A program made the translations under genes and the position numbers. DNA of 64,000 bases from Alphaproteobacteria bacterium (GTDB lineage: Bacteria; Pseudomonadota; Alphaproteobacteria; Thalassobaculales; Thalassobaculaceae): the NCBI GenBank assembly GCA_013203465.1, contig JABMNR010000200.1, positions 1-64,000 of the forward strand. The letters are read 5' to 3'. Shown here piece by piece: positions 18,999 through 36,788 of the stretch (position 1 is its first letter; every line of letters begins with the position of its first letter). Below the pieces are notes generated by a model. The model was not told where the DNA came from and ran no database searches. It saw only the letters and a program-made list of their open reading frames with translations.

Positions 18999-19448
18999 TC
19001 ACCGTCGCCGGGTCGCCTCATCGGGCAACTCGGCCAACAGCGCTACCCGGCTGAACCCAGCGGCGCTGATCTTGCCCATGACCGTCATCACGACGCCGTA
19101 GGCGATCGCCTTGTCACCGCGCACGAAGATTCGCGTGTCCGGCTTGACGCCGGTGATCGCCACCAGCTTTGGTACCAACTCCGCCATCGGGATCTTGGTC
19201 TCCTCGACATAAATTCCGCCGTCTGCGCGCACGCTTATGACCAACGGCTCGGCCTCGTCCGTGAGCTGGGCGGCCTCGGTCTTCGGCAGGTCGACCGGCA
19301 CACCGACGGTCAGCAGTGGCGCCGAGATCATGAACACGATCAACAACACCAGCATCACGTCGACGAACGGCGTGACGTTGATGTCGCTCAGCGGCGTATA
19401 CCGCCGCCGCAACCCGCCGCGCGCCCGCGACACCAGAGGTCCGGCCAC
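18999..19448 (-). CDS. tolR: TolR, proton-channel subunit
   Basis: 149 residues from a GTG start. One transmembrane helix (about 25-45) contains the conserved proton-carrying aspartate in INVTPFVDVMLVLLIVFM (Asp30). The periplasmic domain follows, with VDLPKTEA and VRADGGIYV typical of ExbD/TolR. It pairs with TolQ in an inner-membrane complex energising TolA. It follows tolQ by three bases and ends 23 bases before the tolA start. Confidence 0.95.
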   Translation of the reverse strand: MAGPLVSRARGGLRRRYTPLSDINVTPFVDVMLVLLIVFMISAPLLTVGVPVDLPKTEAAQLTDEAEPLVISVRADGGIYVEETKIPMAELVPKLVAITGVKPDTRIFVRGDKAIAYGVVMTVMGKISAAGFSRVALLAELPDEATRRR

Positions 19449-19451
19449 GGC

Positions 19452-20183
19452 TCAGCTCCCCTCATCGAGCTGGCGCGACAGGATCGAGCCGAACTCGGTG
19501 GCGAAGCCCTCCAGCCGCGCGCCGTAGCGGCCGAGATCGCTGGAAATCTTGTTGTAGGCGACCACCGCCGGAATCGCCGCGACCAGACCGAGCGCGGTGG
19601 CGAACAGCGCTTCCGCGATGCCCGGCGCCACCACGGCGAGCGACGTGTTCTTGGTCGCCGCGATCGATTGGAAACTGTTCATGATGCCCCACACCGTGCC
19701 GAACAATCCGACGAATGGCGCGGTCGAGCCGACCGAGGCGAGGAACGTCATGCGCTTCTCAAGGGTCTCCATCTCGCGCGAGATGGTCAGGTTCATTACC
19801 TGATCGATGCGTTGACGCAGGCTCGCACGCAACTCGTTGCCGCGGGTGTTCAACCCCTTGGCCGCCGAACGCCGCCATTCCCGCATGGCCGAGGCGAAGA
19901 TCGCCGCAAGCGGGTCGCTCGGGCTTCCGCCCATCCGATCGTACAAGTCCTCCAGCGAGCCGCCCGACCAGAAGGCATCCTCGAAGTCCCCGGCCCGCTT
20001 GCGCATCTGACGCATCTTCATGGTCTTCTCGAAGATGATCGCCCAGCACCAGATCGAGGCCAATATCAGCAGGATCATGACCGCCTTGACCACCGGATCG
20101 GCGGACAGGAACAACCCCCAGATGCTGAGATCGCTCGTGTACAGGGCGACCGCGTCGATCGTTGTTTGCGCGTTCTGCTCCAT
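19452..20183 (-). CDS. tolQ: TolQ, proton-channel subunit
   Basis: 243 residues. Three helices: about 33-53 (VVKAVMILLILASIWCW), about 142-165 and about 178-200. The conserved MotA/TolQ/ExbB signatures are ASVGSTAPFVGLFGTVWGI and GIAEALFATALGLVAAIPAVV. It forms the pentameric channel around TolR. RBS AGAGG precedes the ATG. A second, distant TolQ/MotA-like protein is encoded at 33.8 kb. Confidence 0.97.
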   Translation of the reverse strand: MEQNAQTTIDAVALYTSDLSIWGLFLSADPVVKAVMILLILASIWCWAIIFEKTMKMRQMRKRAGDFEDAFWSGGSLEDLYDRMGGSPSDPLAAIFASAMREWRRSAAKGLNTRGNELRASLRQRIDQVMNLTISREMETLEKRMTFLASVGSTAPFVGLFGTVWGIMNSFQSIAATKNTSLAVVAPGIAEALFATALGLVAAIPAVVAYNKISSDLGRYGARLEGFATEFGSILSRQLDEGS

Positions 20184-26443: not shown

Positions 26444-28465
26444 ATGACATCCACGACCGCGCCACAGGGCGCCGCTCTCTCCGAAGCCGAGCACAAGGGA
26501 TTGGCGGACGCGGTGCGTGTCCTCGCCATGGATGCGGTGGAGCAGGCCAAATCCGGCCACCCCGGCATGCCGATGGGCATGGCCGACGCGGCGGTGGTGT
26601 TGTTTTCCCGCTTTCTGCGCTTCGACGCGAGCAATCCCACCTGGCCCGACCGCGACCGCTTCGTGCTGTCGGCCGGTCACGGCTCGATGCTGCTCTACGC
26701 GCTGCTGCATCTGACCGGCTATCCCGGCATGCCGATGGAAGAGCTGAGGCGGTTTCGCCAGATCGGCTCGAAAACCGCCGGTCACCCGGAACGGGGTCTG
26801 GCGCCCGGCATCGAGACCACCACCGGTCCCCTGGGACAGGGGCTCGCCAACGCCGTCGGCATGGCGATCGCCGAACGCCACCTGAACGCCCGTTTCGGCG
26901 ATGATCTGATCGACCACCGGACCTGGGTGATCGCCGGCGATGGCTGCCTGATGGAGGGTATCAGCCACGAGGCCGCGTCGCTCGCCGGGCATCTCGGTCT
27001 CGGTCGCATGAACGTGCTGTGGGACGACAACAGCATCTCGATCGATGGCGCCACCGATCTGTCGATCTCCGACGATGTCGCCGCCCGGTTCCGAGCCTAT
27101 GGCTGGCATGTGGCGGCGGCTGGTGGCCACGATCCGGCCGCCCTGGCCACGGCGATGGCGGCGGCGATAGCCGACCCACGCCCGTCCCTGATCGCCTGCA
27201 AGACGATCATCGGCTATGGCGCGCCCACCAAGGGCGGCACCGCCGGCTCCCACGGCGCGCCGCTGGGCGCCGACGAGATCGCCGCCGCCCGCAAGGCCCT
27301 GGGCTGGGCCCTGCCGCCGTTCGTGTTACCCGAGGTGGTGGTCGAAACCGGCAAGGCGCTTGGCCGTCGCGGCGCCGATGCCCGCGCCGCGTGGGCCGGC
27401 CGCTATAACGCGTCGGCCGCGCGGGCGGAGTTCGACCGGGTGATGGCCGGGGAGTTGCCGGCGTCGCTGGCCGGAGCGATCGGTGCGCTGAAGAGCCAGC
27501 TTGTGGCGGATCAGCCGACGCTCGCGACCCGCGTGTCCTCGCAACGGGCGATCGAGGTGATCGCCCCGCTGATGCCGGAATTGATCGGCGGATCGGCCGA
27601 CCTCACCGGGTCCAACAACACCAAGGTCAAGACCCAGAGCGTGTTTACCCGCGACGATCGCGCCGGCACCTATATTCATTACGGTGTGCGTGAGCATGCC
27701 ATGGCCGCCGCGATGAACGGCATGGCGCTGCATGGCGGGGCGGTGCCCTATGGCGGGACCTTCCTGGTGTTCACCGACTATTGTCGGCCGTCGATCCGTC
27801 TCGCCGCGCTGATGGGCCTCCGGGCGGTGTTCGTGATGACCCATGATAGTATCGGACTGGGCGAGGACGGCCCGACCCACCAGCCGGTCGAGCACTTGGC
27901 GGCGCTACGCGCGATCCCCAATGTTCACATCTGGCGCCCGGCCGACGCGGTCGAAACGGCGGAAGCGTGGCAGCTGGCGCTGGAACGGACGGACGGACCG
28001 TCGATCCTGGCGCTGACCCGCCAAGGCCTGCCGGCGGTTCGGACCGAGGCCTCGGCGGGCAATCGCTCGGCGCGCGGCGGTTACGTTCTCGCCGCGGCGT
28101 CTGGTGCGCATACGGTGACGCTGATCGCCACCGGCTCCGAGATCGAGATCGCGCTGGCCGCCAAGGGATTGCTCGACGCCGACGGGATCGGGACGACCGT
28201 GGTATCGATGCCGTGCATGGAACGCTTCGCCGCCCAGGACGCCGCCTATCGCGCCGAGGTGCTGGGCGTCGGCACGGTGCGGGTCGCGGTCGAGGCCGGC
28301 GTGCGGATGCCTTGGGAATGGCTGATCGGCCCCCAAGGGGCGTTTGTCGGCATGACCGGGTTCGGCGCGTCGGCTCCTTATGAGGAGTTGTACGCGCATT
28401 TTGGTATCACCGCCGACGCGGTCGCCCAGGCGGCCCGCGACCGGCTGGCCGCTCGGAACGCCTGA
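26444..28465 (+). CDS. tkt: Transketolase
   Basis: 673 residues from the ATG at 26444. TPP-dependent transfer of two-carbon units in the pentose phosphate pathway. Key motifs are SGHPGMPMG (His39), [11 protein letters not shown] with NSISIDG for TPP and metal, [20 protein letters not shown] (the Glu that activates TPP), [15 protein letters not shown] and [14 protein letters not shown]. It is the first gene of a rightward carbohydrate run with gap and aldolase. 242 bases separate it from the leftward zapA group, and the divergent promoters must lie there. Confidence 0.97.
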
Positions 28466-28552
28466 TCCGGCGGACGCGGGCCAGCATCCATACGCGCCCC
28501 GGGGAATCGCCCCGCCGGCGCCGGACGACGATTTGAGCTGAGGAGGACAACA

Positions 28553-31164: not shown

Positions 31165-31276
31165 CGAACACCCTCCTCCGGTAGACTCGCCCCGGCCCGC
31201 CTGATACAAGCCGCGCGGCCTCGGCGCGTGCCGACGCCAGATCATTTTGCCTATCTCCCAAGCGACGGACGACGTC

Positions 31277-31843
31277 ATGAAGATCAACGGAAACGCGGTG
31301 CGCATCGGCAATGTGGTCGAGCATCAGAACCGGCTTTGGGTGGTGACCAAGACCCAAGCGGTGAAGCCCGGCAAGGGCGGAGCGTTCAATCAGGTCGAGA
31401 TGAAGGACATCCGCTCGGGCACCAAGCTGAACGAGCGGTTCCGTGCCGACGAGCAGGTCGAGCGCGTGCGCCTGGAACAGCGGGAGGCGACATTCCTGTT
31501 CGCCGACGGCGACCTGCTGACCTTCATGGACAGCGAGACCTACGAGCAGATCACCGTCAACGCCGAGATGATCGGCGAGAAGGTGGCGTTCCTGCAGGAT
31601 GGCATGGTCGTGCAGATCGAAAGCCACGAGGACGAGCCGCTGTCGGTGACGTTGCCCGAGACCGTGGTGATGACGATCGTCGAGGCCGACGCGGTGGTTA
31701 AAGGTCAAACCGCGTCGTCGTCCTACAAACCGGCGGTGTTGGAGAACGGCGTCCGGGTCCTGGTGCCGCCGCACATCGAGGCCGGCACTCGCATCGTGGT
31801 CAAACCCGAAGATAATTCCTACGTCGAACGCGCCAAGGACTAA
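31277..31843 (+). CDS. efp: Elongation factor P
   Basis: 188 residues from the ATG at 31277. Relieves ribosome stalling at polyproline. The KOW-like domain I carries the modifiable loop KPGKGGAF, with Lys33 at the tip; the following OB domains end with [25 protein letters not shown]. No EpmA or EpmB modification gene is in the window. TolA, CpoB and the OmpA-like protein encoded nearby are proline-rich and plausible clients. Confidence 0.97.
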
Positions 31844-31891: not shown

Positions 31892-32710
31892 ATGGCCCTC
31901 CGTTCGGCCCTCTACAACGTCGTGTTCAAGGCCTGCCAGAAGGCCTCGCGCGGGTTAAAGCGCGACTTCGGCGAGGTGGAGAACCTGCAGGTCTCGAAGA
32001 AGGGTCCCGCCGATTTCGTCTCGACCGCCGATCTCCAGGCCGAGAAGGTGCTCAGGGACGAGCTGGGCCGGGCGCGCCCGGAATTCGGCTTCCTGATGGA
32101 GGAGTCGGGCGTTGTCGAGACCGACGACCCACTCGGCCGCCGCTGGATTATCGATCCGCTGGACGGCACGCTCAACTTCCTGCACGGCATTCCGCATTTC
32201 GCCATCTCGGTCGCCGCCGAGGAACGCGGCGAGATCGTGTTCGGCGCGGTATACCAGCCGCTGACCGACGAGTTTTTCTGGGCCGAGCGCGGTCAGGGCG
32301 CCTATCTCAACGAACGCCGCCTCCGGGTCTCCGCCCGCCAGCACATGAACGAGGCGGTGATCGCCACCGGCATTCCGGTCAAGGGGTTGGGTTGCGACCA
32401 CGAGACATTCATGGCGCAGCAGCAGGCGGTGATGAACAACGTCGCCGGGGTGCGCCGCTTCGGCGCGGCGGCACTCGATCTCGCCTGGGTGGCGGCCGGG
32501 CGGGTCGACGGCATGTGGGAAAACCAACTCAACGCCTGGGATATCGCCGCCGGTATTCTCCTTGTCAAAGAGGCGGGCGGCTATGTCACCGATCTGAACA
32601 ACCGTCAGGGCATGCTCGAATCGGGTGACGTGATCGCCGCCAACGATCGACTGCACACGCCGCTTTGGAAGATACTCAGCGCGGCGAAAGCTCCGGTCGG
32701 CGTAGGGTGA
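31892..32710 (+). CDS. suhB: Inositol monophosphatase family protein SuhB
   Basis: 272 residues. Metal-dependent phosphatase with MEESG (Glu70/71), the signature WIIDPLDGTLNFLHG (Asp88, Asp91) and NAWDIAAGILLVKEAGG. Acts on inositol-1-phosphate, or in some bacteria assists ribosome maturation and transcription antitermination. AAGGACA precedes the start. efp-suhB adjacency is seen in other alphaproteobacteria. Confidence 0.94.
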   Translation: MALRSALYNVVFKACQKASRGLKRDFGEVENLQVSKKGPADFVSTADLQAEKVLRDELGRARPEFGFLMEESGVVETDDPLGRRWIIDPLDGTLNFLHGIPHFAISVAAEERGEIVFGAVYQPLTDEFFWAERGQGAYLNERRLRVSARQHMNEAVIATGIPVKGLGCDHETFMAQQQAVMNNVAGVRRFGAAALDLAWVAAGRVDGMWENQLNAWDIAAGILLVKEAGGYVTDLNNRQGMLESGDVIAANDRLHTPLWKILSAAKAPVGVG

Positions 32711-32804: not shown

Positions 32805-33755
32805 ATGAGGGGACCACGCGCGCTCGTCGGCATACCGTTGATCCTGGCGGCGGGCTTCGCCGCCGTTTCGGCCACCTCTCCGTCCTGGGCTCAGGTGCCC
32901 TATCGTATCGGTGACGGTAATCCGAACGTGACCGTCGATCTCAGTGTGCTTGATGCGCTGGGAACGGTACCGACCATTCCGCAGATGCTGCACCCCGGGC
33001 TGTCCTCGAACGTTCTCACGCCGAGCCGAAGCGGCGCTCCCGTCGCCATGGGCGCTCCGACCAACGCCGCGCCGGCGTGGCTGCGGCGGCCGGATGCACC
33101 GGTCTACGCCGCGCCGCCGGCTGCCTTGATGACGCGCGCCGCCCCGGCACCCGCCGCGCCCAAGACGATGACCTTGGCGCCGCCGAAGCCGATGGTCGCG
33201 AAACCGGCGGCTCCGCAAGTGGTCACCGCCACGCCCGTGGCACCAAAACCAACAACGATGAAACCCGCGGCTCCGCCGCCGCCGCCCGTCATACCCAAGG
33301 CGCCGGAACCGCCAAAACTGCCACCCCCTGCCATTGCGGCGCCAAAGCGGGCAACCGACACCCAGGTAGCGGCCGTACCACCCGCACCCGCGAAAGCGAC
33401 CTCGGCGCCGGCGGCTCCCACCGCCTCCACCCAGGGCGTTTCCGGCGATCAGCTTCGGCTGGTCTTTCCTGCCGAGCAGTCGCAACTGCCCGATGACGCC
33501 AAGTCGGGCTTGAATGAAATCATCGCTCGCCTGCAGAAGAACGAGGCGTTGCGCGTGCAACTTCTAGCCTACGCCGACGGCGACCAGGGCACCGCCAACA
33601 AGGCGCGCCGGTTGTCGTTGTCCCGTGCCTTGGCGGTACGTGCCTATCTGATCGACGCGAAGATTCAGAGCACGCGCATGGATGTGCGCGCACTCGGCAA
33701 TCGCGCCCAGGAAGCACCAAAAGACCGTGTCGACGTGGTGCTCGTGAGCAGGTGA
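32805..33755 (+). CDS. Secreted proline-rich protein with C-terminal OmpA-like domain
   Basis: 316 residues from the ATG at 32805, preceded by GGGAGG. The signal peptide is cleaved near residue 30 (SPSWAQ). Residues about 70-210 are a Pro, Ala and Lys-rich low-complexity spacer. The last 100 residues match the OmpA/Pal fold: LVFPAEQSQLPDDA, then AYADGDQG in place of GHTDxxG, then LSLSRALAVRAYL, keeping one Asp and the Arg that bind peptidoglycan peptides. It is probably periplasmic and wall-bound. It lies 46 bases ahead of a TolQ/MotA-like gene and then a MotB-like gene, suggesting a three-part envelope complex. Function unknown. Confidence 0.85.
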   Translation: MRGPRALVGIPLILAAGFAAVSATSPSWAQVPYRIGDGNPNVTVDLSVLDALGTVPTIPQMLHPGLSSNVLTPSRSGAPVAMGAPTNAAPAWLRRPDAPVYAAPPAALMTRAAPAPAAPKTMTLAPPKPMVAKPAAPQVVTATPVAPKPTTMKPAAPPPPPVIPKAPEPPKLPPPAIAAPKRATDTQVAAVPPAPAKATSAPAAPTASTQGVSGDQLRLVFPAEQSQLPDDAKSGLNEIIARLQKNEALRVQLLAYADGDQGTANKARRLSLSRALAVRAYLIDAKIQSTRMDVRALGNRAQEAPKDRVDVVLVSR

Positions 33756-33801
33756 GCCGGCGCACCGTTTCCGAACCCGCCGGGAAGTGGGGAGATCAGC
33801 G

Positions 33802-34938
33802 GTGACCGATCCGCGCCGCTATCTTTTACGGATGTTTTTATTCCTGGTCGCCGTGGCTGTGGTCGCCGGTGTGTTATCGGCACCGTTGATGGACGCCTTT
33901 CTGGCCAACGCGGCGCTGAATGGTGTCATCCTGGGCGTGCTGGTCATCGGCATCGGGTTCATGCTGCGCCATGTGCTGCGGCTGGGCCCGGAAGTGCACT
34001 GGATCGAAACCTACCGCACTCAGTCGGTCGGCGTGTCGGTCCAGACACCGCCGACACTGCTGGCCCCGGTTGCCACCCTTCTCGGTGATCGGCAGGAGGG
34101 CGCGCGGCAAAGCCTCTCGGCGTTGTCGCTGCGCTCGCTGCTCGACAGCATCAGCGTGCGGCTGGAAGAGTCCCGCGACATCTCGCGCTATCTGATCGGT
34201 CTGCTGATCTTCCTCGGCCTGCTCGGCACGTTCTGGGGTCTGCTGCTGACGATCGGCGCCGTGGGCGACGTCATCGGCGGCCTGAGCATCGAAAGCGGCG
34301 ATCTCGGCGCCGTATTCGCGGATTTGAAGGCCGGGCTTGAATCCCCGCTCGACGGTATGGGCACGGCGTTCTCTTCATCGCTGTTCGGGCTCGCTGGCTC
34401 TCTTGTTCTTGGGTTTCTCGACTTGCAGCTCGGCCAGGCCCAGAACCGGTTCTACAACGAGCTTGAGGAATGGTTGGCCGGGTTGACCCGCCTGAGCGGC
34501 GGAGGCCTGGCCTTCGAAGGTGAACACTCCGCCACCGCGTTTCAGCAGGCGTTAATGGAACAAACGGCGGAATCCCTCGACAAATTGCAACGCATCATGG
34601 CCCATGGCGAAGATGATCGGCGCGCCGCCAAAAACGCCCTGTTCACGCTGGTCGACAAGCTCAACGATCTGACCGACAAACTCGATGGCGACCGCGACTT
34701 CATGCTGCGGCTCGCGAGAGCGCAGGATGAGTTGCGTCCAGTGCTTGGCCGGTTGGCCGATGCCGCCGGAGGCGGGCGCGACGAGATCGTCCGCAGCCAT
34801 CTGCGCAACATCGAGGCCTACATGGCCCGGCTGCTGGAGGACGGGGCGGCCGGACGGGCTCAAATGACCGAGGAGTTGCGAGGCGAAGTACGGTTGGTGG
34901 CACGAACAATCGCGGCCCTCGCTGAAGACGAGCGCTGA
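33802..34938 (+). CDS. MotA/TolQ/ExbB-family proton channel protein
   Basis: 378 residues from a GTG at 33802 (GGAG eight bases upstream). Four helices are seen at about 10-32, 38-58, 130-152 and 185-210. The third and fourth carry the family core: GLLIFLGLLGTFWGLLLTIG and MGTAFSSSLFGLAGSLVLG. The C-terminal 165 residues are cytoplasmic and mostly helical (QQALMEQTAESLDKLQR, LFTLVDKLNDLTDKLDGD), probably a coiled coil. It pairs with the downstream MotB-like protein, as MotA with MotB or ZorA with ZorB. It is unlike the true TolQ at 19.5 kb, and no flagellar or TonB genes are near. Its role is unknown. Confidence 0.85.
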   Translation: MTDPRRYLLRMFLFLVAVAVVAGVLSAPLMDAFLANAALNGVILGVLVIGIGFMLRHVLRLGPEVHWIETYRTQSVGVSVQTPPTLLAPVATLLGDRQEGARQSLSALSLRSLLDSISVRLEESRDISRYLIGLLIFLGLLGTFWGLLLTIGAVGDVIGGLSIESGDLGAVFADLKAGLESPLDGMGTAFSSSLFGLAGSLVLGFLDLQLGQAQNRFYNELEEWLAGLTRLSGGGLAFEGEHSATAFQQALMEQTAESLDKLQRIMAHGEDDRRAAKNALFTLVDKLNDLTDKLDGDRDFMLRLARAQDELRPVLGRLADAAGGGRDEIVRSHLRNIEAYMARLLEDGAAGRAQMTEELRGEVRLVARTIAALAEDER

Positions 34939-34976
34939 GACCACCGGTCCGATAGAGCGAGACCAGAGAGCAACCA

Positions 34977-36788
34977 ATGTCCACCCTGGCCCGCCGACGC
35001 AATCACGACACCAATATCTGGCCCGGGTTTGTCGACGCGCTGGCCACGTTGTTGATGGTGATCATCTTCGTGCTGATGATCTTCATCGTGGCGCAGTTCT
35101 ATTTGACCCAGATCCTGTCCGGTAAGGACGAGACCTTGGCGCGGTTGTCGCAGCAGGTCGCCGAGCTTAGCGACCTGCTGTCGCTGGAGCGCGAAGCCAG
35201 CGCCGAGCTGCGGCTGACCGTCGCCCAGTTATCGGCCGAGCTGCAGGGGTCGATTACCGAGCGGGATTCTCTCGCTGGGCAGGTCGGCCGGCTGTCGACG
35301 GTGCGAGACAGCTTGGAAGCACGGCTCGCCGCGCTGGTTGCCGAACGCGCGGTCCTGCAGCAACACTTGGACGAAGCGGCGGCCGATCGCCAGGGGCTGG
35401 ACGCCCGACTGTTGGAGGTGCTGAAAGAGCGTGACGCCCTCATCGGCAAGCTCGCCAAGGTCGAGGACGAGGTCCGCGTCGCCGTCGCCGAGCGAACCGA
35501 ATTGGCGGCAAACTTCGAGAACGCCCTGACCGTCATCGCGGCCAACCGCGAGACCATCGAGCTGCAATTGCGCGATTTGGAGCGCCTGCGCCGCGATATC
35601 GGCGCGTTGCGCGAGGTACGGGACGATCTGGAGTCCGATATCGCGCGCCTGATCGAGGCTCGCAACGCGCTGCGGGGGACGCTCACGGAAGTCGAAACCG
35701 AGCGTGAGGCCCTGCGTAACACCTTGAGCGAGGCTGAAACCGAGCGCGAGGCCCTGCGCGGTACCCTGAGAGAGACCGAAACCGAGCGCGAGGCCCTGCG
35801 CGGCACCCTGAGAGAGACCGAAACCGAACGCGATGCGGCGGGACAACGCATCACGATCCTGATCGGGCGGCTGGATGATGCGGCGAGCGCGATCACCCGC
35901 CTGGAGGATATGAACGCCGAAACGAGAGCGGAGATCGCCGACCTTCTCCAGAAGTTAGAGGCCGCCGGTACACGCATCGTGGATCTGAATGCCGCTCTTA
36001 GTGCCGAGCGCGACACCACCAAGAAGCTTGAAGCCTCGTTGGCCGAACAGACCGAACGCACCAGTCTGAAGCAAGTCGAGCTGGAACAACGCGACATCCG
36101 CCTGGAGGAACTGTTCAGCGAATACGAGGCGGTTCGGAGTTCACTCGACGACGAGAAGCAGGTTTCCAGCGACGCAAAACAACAGGTCGAGCTGTTGAAT
36201 GCTCAACTCACGGCCCTACGTGATCAATTGGCGCGGATCGAGGCGGCTCTGGCGACGTCGGAAGCGTTAAACGCGGAGCAGAACACCCGGATTGTCGATC
36301 TGGGCCGGCGCCTGAATGCCGCGCTGGCCACCAAGGTGCAGGAACTGGCTCGCTTCCGTAGCGAGTTCTTCGGCCGCCTGCGCGAAGTGCTGTCCGACCG
36401 CGACGATATCCGCATTGTCGGCGACCGGTTCGTGTTCCAGTCCGAGGTGCTGTTCGCTTCCGGCTCGGCTGAGATCGGTACCGAGGGCCAGTTCAAACTC
36501 GCCCAGTTCGCTCATACCCTGACCGAAATCGCCGGCCGAATTCCGGGGAATATTGGCTGGATTCTCCAGGTCGAAGGGCATACCGACACGGTGCCCATCT
36601 TCAACGAGCAGTTCGCCAACAACTGGGAACTCTCCACCGGCCGAGCGATCTCGGTGGTTCAGTTCCTCATCACCCAAGGCATTCCGCCCGAACGATTGGC
36701 TGCCGCCGGCTACGGCGAACATCAGCCGATCGCGCCGGGCGCGCTGGAACGCAATCGTCGGATTGAGATGAAACTGACCCAGCGTTGA
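34977..36788 (+). CDS. MotB-like protein: TM helix, very long coiled coil, C-terminal OmpA domain
   Basis: 603 residues. One N-terminal helix (about 16-40) includes an aspartate in WPGFVDALATLLMVIIF, placed like the proton-binding Asp of MotB, TolR and ZorB. Residues about 45-460 are an unbroken coiled coil rich in Glu, Leu, Arg and Thr, including four tandem 14-residue repeats. The last 140 residues are an OmpA/MotB peptidoglycan-binding domain: LFASGSAEIG, VEGHTDTVPI, NWELSTGRA and RNRRIEMKL. This makes a stator-like protein with an unusually long rod between membrane and wall. It follows the MotA/TolQ-like gene by 38 bases. No substrate or partner beyond that pair is evident. Confidence 0.85.
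   Translation: MSTLARRRNHDTNIWPGFVDALATLLMVIIFVLMIFIVAQFYLTQILSGKDETLARLSQQVAELSDLLSLEREASAELRLTVAQLSAELQGSITERDSLAGQVGRLSTVRDSLEARLAALVAERAVLQQHLDEAAADRQGLDARLLEVLKERDALIGKLAKVEDEVRVAVAERTELAANFENALTVIAANRETIELQLRDLERLRRDIGALREVRDDLESDIARLIEARNALRGTLTEVETEREALRNTLSEAETEREALRGTLRETETEREALRGTLRETETERDAAGQRITILIGRLDDAASAITRLEDMNAETRAEIADLLQKLEAAGTRIVDLNAALSAERDTTKKLEASLAEQTERTSLKQVELEQRDIRLEELFSEYEAVRSSLDDEKQVSSDAKQQVELLNAQLTALRDQLARIEAALATSEALNAEQNTRIVDLGRRLNAALATKVQELARFRSEFFGRLREVLSDRDDIRIVGDRFVFQSEVLFASGSAEIGTEGQFKLAQFAHTLTEIAGRIPGNIGWILQVEGHTDTVPIFNEQFANNWELSTGRAISVVQFLITQGIPPERLAAAGYGEHQPIAPGALERNRRIEMKLTQR
35670..35837 (+). repeat. Four tandem 42-bp repeats inside the MotB-like coiled-coil gene
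   Basis: Units begin at 35670, 35712, 35754 and 35796. Each encodes 14 residues of the form LRGTLxExETEREA. Units 3 and 4 are almost identical in DNA; unit 1 is the most diverged. Fourteen residues are two heptads, so copy-number change would lengthen the rod by whole turns without breaking register. Confidence 0.9.

Follow-up and report, generated by a model that had tools for sequence, protein, structure and literature searches.

A conserved motor cassette of Alphaproteobacteria, neither flagellar nor Tol, with a probable kinship to the Zorya motor

A real, conserved motor cassette of Alphaproteobacteria, neither flagellar nor Tol, occupies positions 32805-36788 (+) of the window, that is, of the whole stretch of 64,000 nucleotides that was analysed. 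It consists of three co-directional genes, in the order orf1, A and B. Its gene set, its conservation and its independence from flagella come directly out of the computation, as do the conserved residues of the ion path and the wall-binding fold. The initial annotation had ascribed to A and B the logic of a proton-driven stator, and this is supported, the pair being neither a flagellar stator nor a Tol system. Nevertheless, judging from profiles, phylogeny and residue signature, the closest affinity of the A subunit is probably to ZorA, from the anti-phage motor Zorya, rather than to TolQ or MotA. While the architecture of the cassette is well supported, what the motor does in the cell is suggested here mainly by its wall-binding subunit and by work on a probable orthologous pair.

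The locus and its distribution

The cassette is flanked by fba-thiE-efp-suhB upstream and by rpmE downstream; the three genes and the efp-suhB and rpmE neighbours that had been reported are all present (Table 1). This arrangement is not a product of chance, as it recurs across Alphaproteobacteria. The same gene order was found in the 20 loci fetched first, which span many families of the class. In a set of 102 loci enriched for Rhodospirillales-like genomes, B lies directly downstream of A in 95, and an orf1-type gene precedes A in 78 of the 92 loci with enough upstream DNA. The proposed survey of the gene neighbourhood thus revealed a strong co-occurrence. A scan for promoters and terminators gave a yield within chance expectation.

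Table 1. Coordinates, in the window, of the cassette, its conserved neighbours and the features within its genes
Feature	Position	Strand	Description and basis
efp	31247..31843	+	Conserved neighbour outside the motor; near A in 66/80 loci (those of the 102 with sufficient flank)
suhB-like inositol phosphatase	31892..32710	+	Conserved neighbour outside the motor; near A in 73/82 loci (counted likewise)
orf1	32805..33755	+	316 aa; secreted, Pro-rich, with an OmpA-like domain at the C-terminus; third cassette member
OmpA-like domain of orf1	33465..33707	+	Pfam OmpA and residue conservation
A subunit	33787..34938	+	383 aa; four-helix, predicted channel-forming; probably ZorA-side within the superfamily
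T148 codon, GTFxG motif in TM3	34228..34230	+	Predicted ion path; invariant in alignment
S198 codon, AFxxS of TM4	34378..34380	+	Invariant; ZorA also has Ser here, MotA/PomA/TolQ/ExbB have Thr
Cytoplasmic helical tail of A, residues 251-382	34537..34932	+	Two AF2 helices (251-326, 332-382); pLDDT per block mostly 58-79
B subunit	34977..36788	+	603 aa; MotB/ZorB-type; NCBIfam PRK09039 family
D20 codon, invariant membrane Asp of B (WPGFVD20)	35034..35036	+	Two alignments of relatives
Long periplasmic coiled coil of B, residues 46-440	35112..36296	+	AF2 and periodicity; helix break near 279-287
42-bp tandem repeat inside B	35693..35833	+	3.4 copies, 87% match; adds 14-residue, two-heptad units to the coil
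C-terminal OmpA-family peptidoglycan-binding domain of B	36450..36752	+	Pfam OmpA E 1.4e-14

Of 61 sampled relatives, 44 have A, and a profile search detected it in about two thirds of the alphaproteobacterial genomes with a completeness of at least 90% (198 of 289). As it was not found in about a third of the sampled genomes of the class, the cassette is not universally essential. FliG, present in 180 of the same 289 genomes, is distributed independently of A: both were found in 126 genomes, A only in 72, FliG only in 54 and neither in 37 (Fisher p 0.51, to be taken as a guide only, since the genomes are phylogenetically non-independent). Consequently, a stronger argument than the p value is provided by the 72 genomes that have A but lack FliG. 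Outside the class, A-B pairs were observed without efp or suhB nearby in three genomes of other classes of Pseudomonadota; their A proteins nest inside the alphaproteobacterial clade in the tree, and these pairs were likely acquired by horizontal transfer.

The genome carries Tol and flagellar systems apart from the cassette. A true TolQR lies in the window at 18999-20183, with TolQ at 280.7 bits (cut-off 221) and TolR at 129.1 bits (cut-off 127.3). The separate TolQRA set that had been annotated was thus borne out for TolQ and TolR, while the gene in the TolA position has no NCBIfam match and is backed solely by its position and architecture. The sole match over the TIGR03818 cut-off in the genome, which also encodes FliG, is the flagellar MotA of a different contig (C157). 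Additionally, a PomA-like MotA/MotB pair was observed on contig C68, near 28166-28525. Within the window, a PADLOC scan of nine other genes, from fba to a hydrolase at 39.6 kb (29.6-39.6 kb), gave no match and hence no ZorC, ZorD or ZorE.

The three proteins

The A subunit probably starts at the GTG at 33802 rather than at 33787, because its relatives begin at the position of this codon (coding VTDPRRYL). In its AF2 model (pLDDT 80), four long helices of membrane type are followed by a helical tail at the C-terminus (residues 251-382), as had been described. By contrast, the “TolQ/MotA-type” label given to this protein was not upheld, as the Pfam MotA_ExbB profile reaches 19.6 bits, below its cut-off of 22.9, and the nearest named profiles are those of ZorA. 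MotA models did not match A at an E-value of 0.01, and neither did the TolQ model. PADLOC ZorA1/ZorA3 match the 20 aligned A proteins (best E 1.7e-17), and NCBIfam ZorA_4 matches 15 of them, but the scores of A are far below the curated ZorA cut-offs (18.8 bits vs 500 for ZorA_4, and 16.4 vs 100). The tail is short or absent in several subclades in which A has about 300 aa, and the pair is nevertheless kept.

The residues of the predicted ion path point in the same direction as the profiles. At the position of T148, Thr is found in 20/20 alphaproteobacterial A proteins, 6/6 ZorA, 9/9 TolQ and 8/8 ExbB, while 9/9 MotA have Ala. GTFxG in TM3 together with a Ser in TM4 is common to A, ZorA and the giant ZorA-like proteins (see below), whereas MotA, PomA, TolQ and ExbB have Thr in TM4. 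In a tree of 71 proteins, the A proteins are grouped in a single clade (100/99); a split (100/98) separates MotA, PomA, TolQ and ExbB from the ZorA side, where this clade falls, and the branches are long. With the same caveat on branch length, approximately unbiased (AU) tests gave p values of 0.055 for grouping A with MotA and PomA and of 0.091 for grouping it with TolQ and ExbB, so that neither alternative is firmly rejected; a single clade of A, ZorA and the giant ZorA-like proteins was not rejected (p 0.377). Foldseek placed ExbB, TolQ and ZorA chains at a probability of 1.00 for the A model, ExbB ranking first, with weak E-values (best 2.3e-3). A search of PDB sequences with the A profile yielded no convincing motor-subunit match, just coiled-coil-like chance matches to the tail. 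The fold indicated by Foldseek, the T148/S198 pair and D20 of B together place the cassette in the 5:2 motor superfamily.

Two further kinds of loci were seen. In eight loci of other Pseudomonadota, ZorA-side A-type proteins of about 330-390 aa are monophyletic in the tree (100/100); in the two loci where the partner was read (L219 and L220), it is a 260-aa B-type protein, and the pair adjoins a gene that resembles gpmI by sequence. In three other loci, giant ZorA-like proteins of 1270-1610 aa are accompanied by a MotB-like protein (about 310 aa).

The B subunit conforms to its description as a MotB-type protein with a membrane aspartate, a long coil and a wall-binding domain. In the WPGFVD motif of its membrane helix, W15, V19 and D20 are invariant in alignments, as is the motif of the OmpA domain, and D20 corresponds by inspection to the aspartate of ZorB and MotB. 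The best PDB sequence matches of the OmpA domain are solved MotB/MotS domains. B is a member of PRK09039 (NF006543, 435 bits vs a cut-off of 305; NF006544, 382.7 vs 362) and is also matched by PADLOC ZorB3 (E 3.1e-22). TolR does not appear among the 25 NCBIfam families listed for B, and ExbD/TolR is absent from its Pfam matches.

Between the membrane and the wall-binding domain, AF2 predicts helices at residues 20-278 and 288-435, with a weakly predicted break between them (pLDDT <50 at 277-290). The coil has a hydrophobic periodicity of 3.5 residues and zero proline between residues 45 and 440. Some 390 residues at 0.149 nm each would extend for about 58 nm if straight, while the periplasm is some 20-30 nm wide. 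The coil must therefore fold back, lie flat or otherwise not form a straight radial rod. Additionally, B varies from 302 to 728 aa across relatives (three shorter values, from cut or misjoined frames or uninspected, were set aside) and cannot be a conserved ruler; its length does not correlate with that of A (Spearman 0.06, p 0.55). On these two grounds, B as a straight-rod ruler across the periplasm was rejected, and with it the suggestion of a periplasm-spanning device in that form.

The product of orf1 answers to the secreted, proline-rich OmpA-domain protein that had been annotated: an N-terminal signal sequence, which ends in ...SPSWAQ and in which no lipobox was seen, precedes a Pro-rich middle and a Pfam OmpA match (E 2e-10). 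Its OmpA-like domain keeps an RRLSLxRA segment, and the Arg of the wall-binding motif (R274) is found in 86/87 members of its family; the usual wall-binding Asp (D258) is found in only 5/87. Wall binding by orf1 is, on this sequence evidence, plausible.

Relation to known motors

Part of this system had already been named. NCBIfam PRK09039, “peptidoglycan -binding protein” (NF006542-NF006546), includes B, but the family is defined on B alone, without an assigned mechanism, and its best model has 350 aa as opposed to the 603 of B, which is longer because of its coil. A literature search on PRK09039 gave nothing on point. Flagellar MotA-MotB belongs to the same motor superfamily, and the wall-binding domain of B is closest by sequence to MotS/MotB structures; however, the cassette is unlinked to flagella, A falls in another clade and the channel residues differ. 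With TolQ-TolR and ExbB-ExbD, A shares the channel architecture and the Foldseek similarity, but it has four TM helices instead of the three of TolQ/ExbB, B has an OmpA rather than an ExbD/TolR domain, and the genome has its own TolQR.

The closest likeness is to ZorA-ZorB of Zorya (types I and III), as it comprises the cytoplasmic helical tail and the GTFxG and AFxxS motifs on the A side, the membrane Asp and the OmpA-type wall-binding domain on the B side, and the closest named profiles for A. Cryo-EM of ZorAB has revealed a 5:2 motor in which ZorB binds peptidoglycan and the ZorA tail is needed (PMC11890865). Unlike Zorya, the cassette lacks ZorC, ZorD and ZorE, sits at a conserved efp-suhB locus without defence-island context and has orf1 as an extra member; the A tail is shorter than in type I, the coil of B is far longer and scores fall far below the ZorA cut-offs. 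Additionally, a survey of such motors named the non-flagellar members GIT and described their B subunits as devoid of OmpA-type domains (PMC12505986), a generalisation that the present family does not fit, as its B carries one. Three identities were thus discarded: a flagellar stator, by independence from FliG, profiles and tree; a Tol paralogue, by profiles; and a true Zorya, by absent effectors and scores below cut-offs. The pair is, consequently, neither a known stator or Tol paralogue nor a combination scattered without co-occurrence.

The one experimental lead on function that was found comes from the non-flagellated Komagataeibacter hansenii ATCC 23769. This acetic acid bacterium has adjacent motA and motB genes coding for proteins of 348 and 321 aa, the former with 4 TM and a large cytoplasmic loop and the latter with 1 TM and an OmpA-like end (PMC6570709). 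The GFP fusions gave a polar signal, and overexpression led to elongated, chained cells, faster spreading on soft agar and looser cellulose (PMC6570709). The pair, whose BLAST kin are proteins from R. centenum, Magnetospirillum and Rhizobium, was interpreted as a relative of flagellar stators and was studied by overexpression and GFP fusion only (PMC6570709). Although both proteins are shorter than A and B here, the architecture and the BLAST kin, as the paper describes them, make orthology with A-B probable; the overexpression phenotypes are indirect as to function. Consequently, the earlier term “undescribed” does not hold, given that B falls in a named NCBIfam equivalog and that a probable orthologous pair has been studied. 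An orphan motA2 in Phaeobacter inhibens DSM 17395 is upregulated >12-fold when ctrA or cckA is mutated (PMC12363192). A literature search for transposon phenotypes gave nothing on point.

A possible mechanism and its alternatives

We propose that the cassette encodes a class-wide, housekeeping, ZorAB-like and ion-driven 5:2 motor of the inner membrane that acts on peptidoglycan at poles or division sites, a reading that we hold to be reasonably probable. By analogy with its family, two B helices would be surrounded by a channel of five A subunits. Ions would pass by D20 of B and a ring of T148/S198 hydroxyls of A, and this would produce relative rotation. B might then reach the peptidoglycan through a folded or flat-lying coil and grip it with its OmpA domain. 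The A tails would bundle in the cytoplasm and probably relay motion to, or take a signal from, a partner, and orf1 would be a secreted, probably wall-associated accessory protein. The likeliest task would be a PMF-dependent handling of the wall or envelope at poles and division sites, i.e., cell separation or length control; such a role is favoured by the K. hansenii phenotypes together with the wall-binding B.

Other explanations can account for part of these observations. Three genes that include a secreted OmpA-domain protein recall TolQ-TolR-Pal and, as ExbB and TolQ chains also rank high in Foldseek, the cassette might be a Tol-Pal- or TonB-like PMF force transducer that pulls on an outer-membrane partner, perhaps through orf1, instead of acting on the wall. 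We consider this unlikely, as the genome has its own TolQR, the cassette showed no TolA/TonB-like transducer, orf1 shows no lipobox and belongs to a family that has mostly lost the usual wall-binding Asp, and MotA_ExbB stays below its cut-off for A. An improbable reading, too, is that of a sensor of wall damage or tension, in which ion flow would be gated by the engagement of B with peptidoglycan and the A tail would carry the signal inward, little mechanical work being done. It would agree with the Zorya model, where wall engagement is proposed to open the channel (PMC11890865), and the widely varying lengths of the A tail and the B coil suit a tether better than a ruler; however, the operon includes no cytoplasmic effector, and several subclades keep the pair with almost no A tail.

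The shared motifs and the ZorA and ZorB profiles, the closest named for A and the latter also matching B, might suggest an anti-phage motor, a relative of Zorya without the known effectors. Such a role seems very unlikely in view of the empty PADLOC scan around the cassette, the distance of A from the ZorA_4 cut-off and a broad distribution at a conserved efp-suhB locus, unlike that of mobile defence systems. As to an auxiliary flagellar stator whose genes lie apart from the flagellar cluster, B is indeed MotB-type and public records annotate such pairs as flagellar MotA/MotB (PMC6570709 Table 1), but this is scarcely credible for a pair that is uncorrelated with FliG, whose A lies outside MotA/PomA in the tree and whose genome encodes a true MotA elsewhere.

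Beyond the proposed wall-acting motor itself, we suggest, more tentatively, that it may be a core, vertically kept housekeeping 5:2 motor of Alphaproteobacteria, on the same branch as Zorya and with a third, secreted and wall-associated subunit, working on the wall at cell poles and sites of division. If so, Zorya would be a defence offshoot of, or a sister to, such an envelope motor. Tasks have been assigned to several 5:2 motors, namely those of flagella, Tol, Ton, gliding and Zorya. Confirmation of our proposal would add, for an entire bacterial class, a machine that is powered by the PMF and acts on the wall, would caution against naming such pairs, often annotated as flagellar, as flagellar stators or as Zorya, and would provide a non-defence relative with which to ask how the Zorya motor arose.
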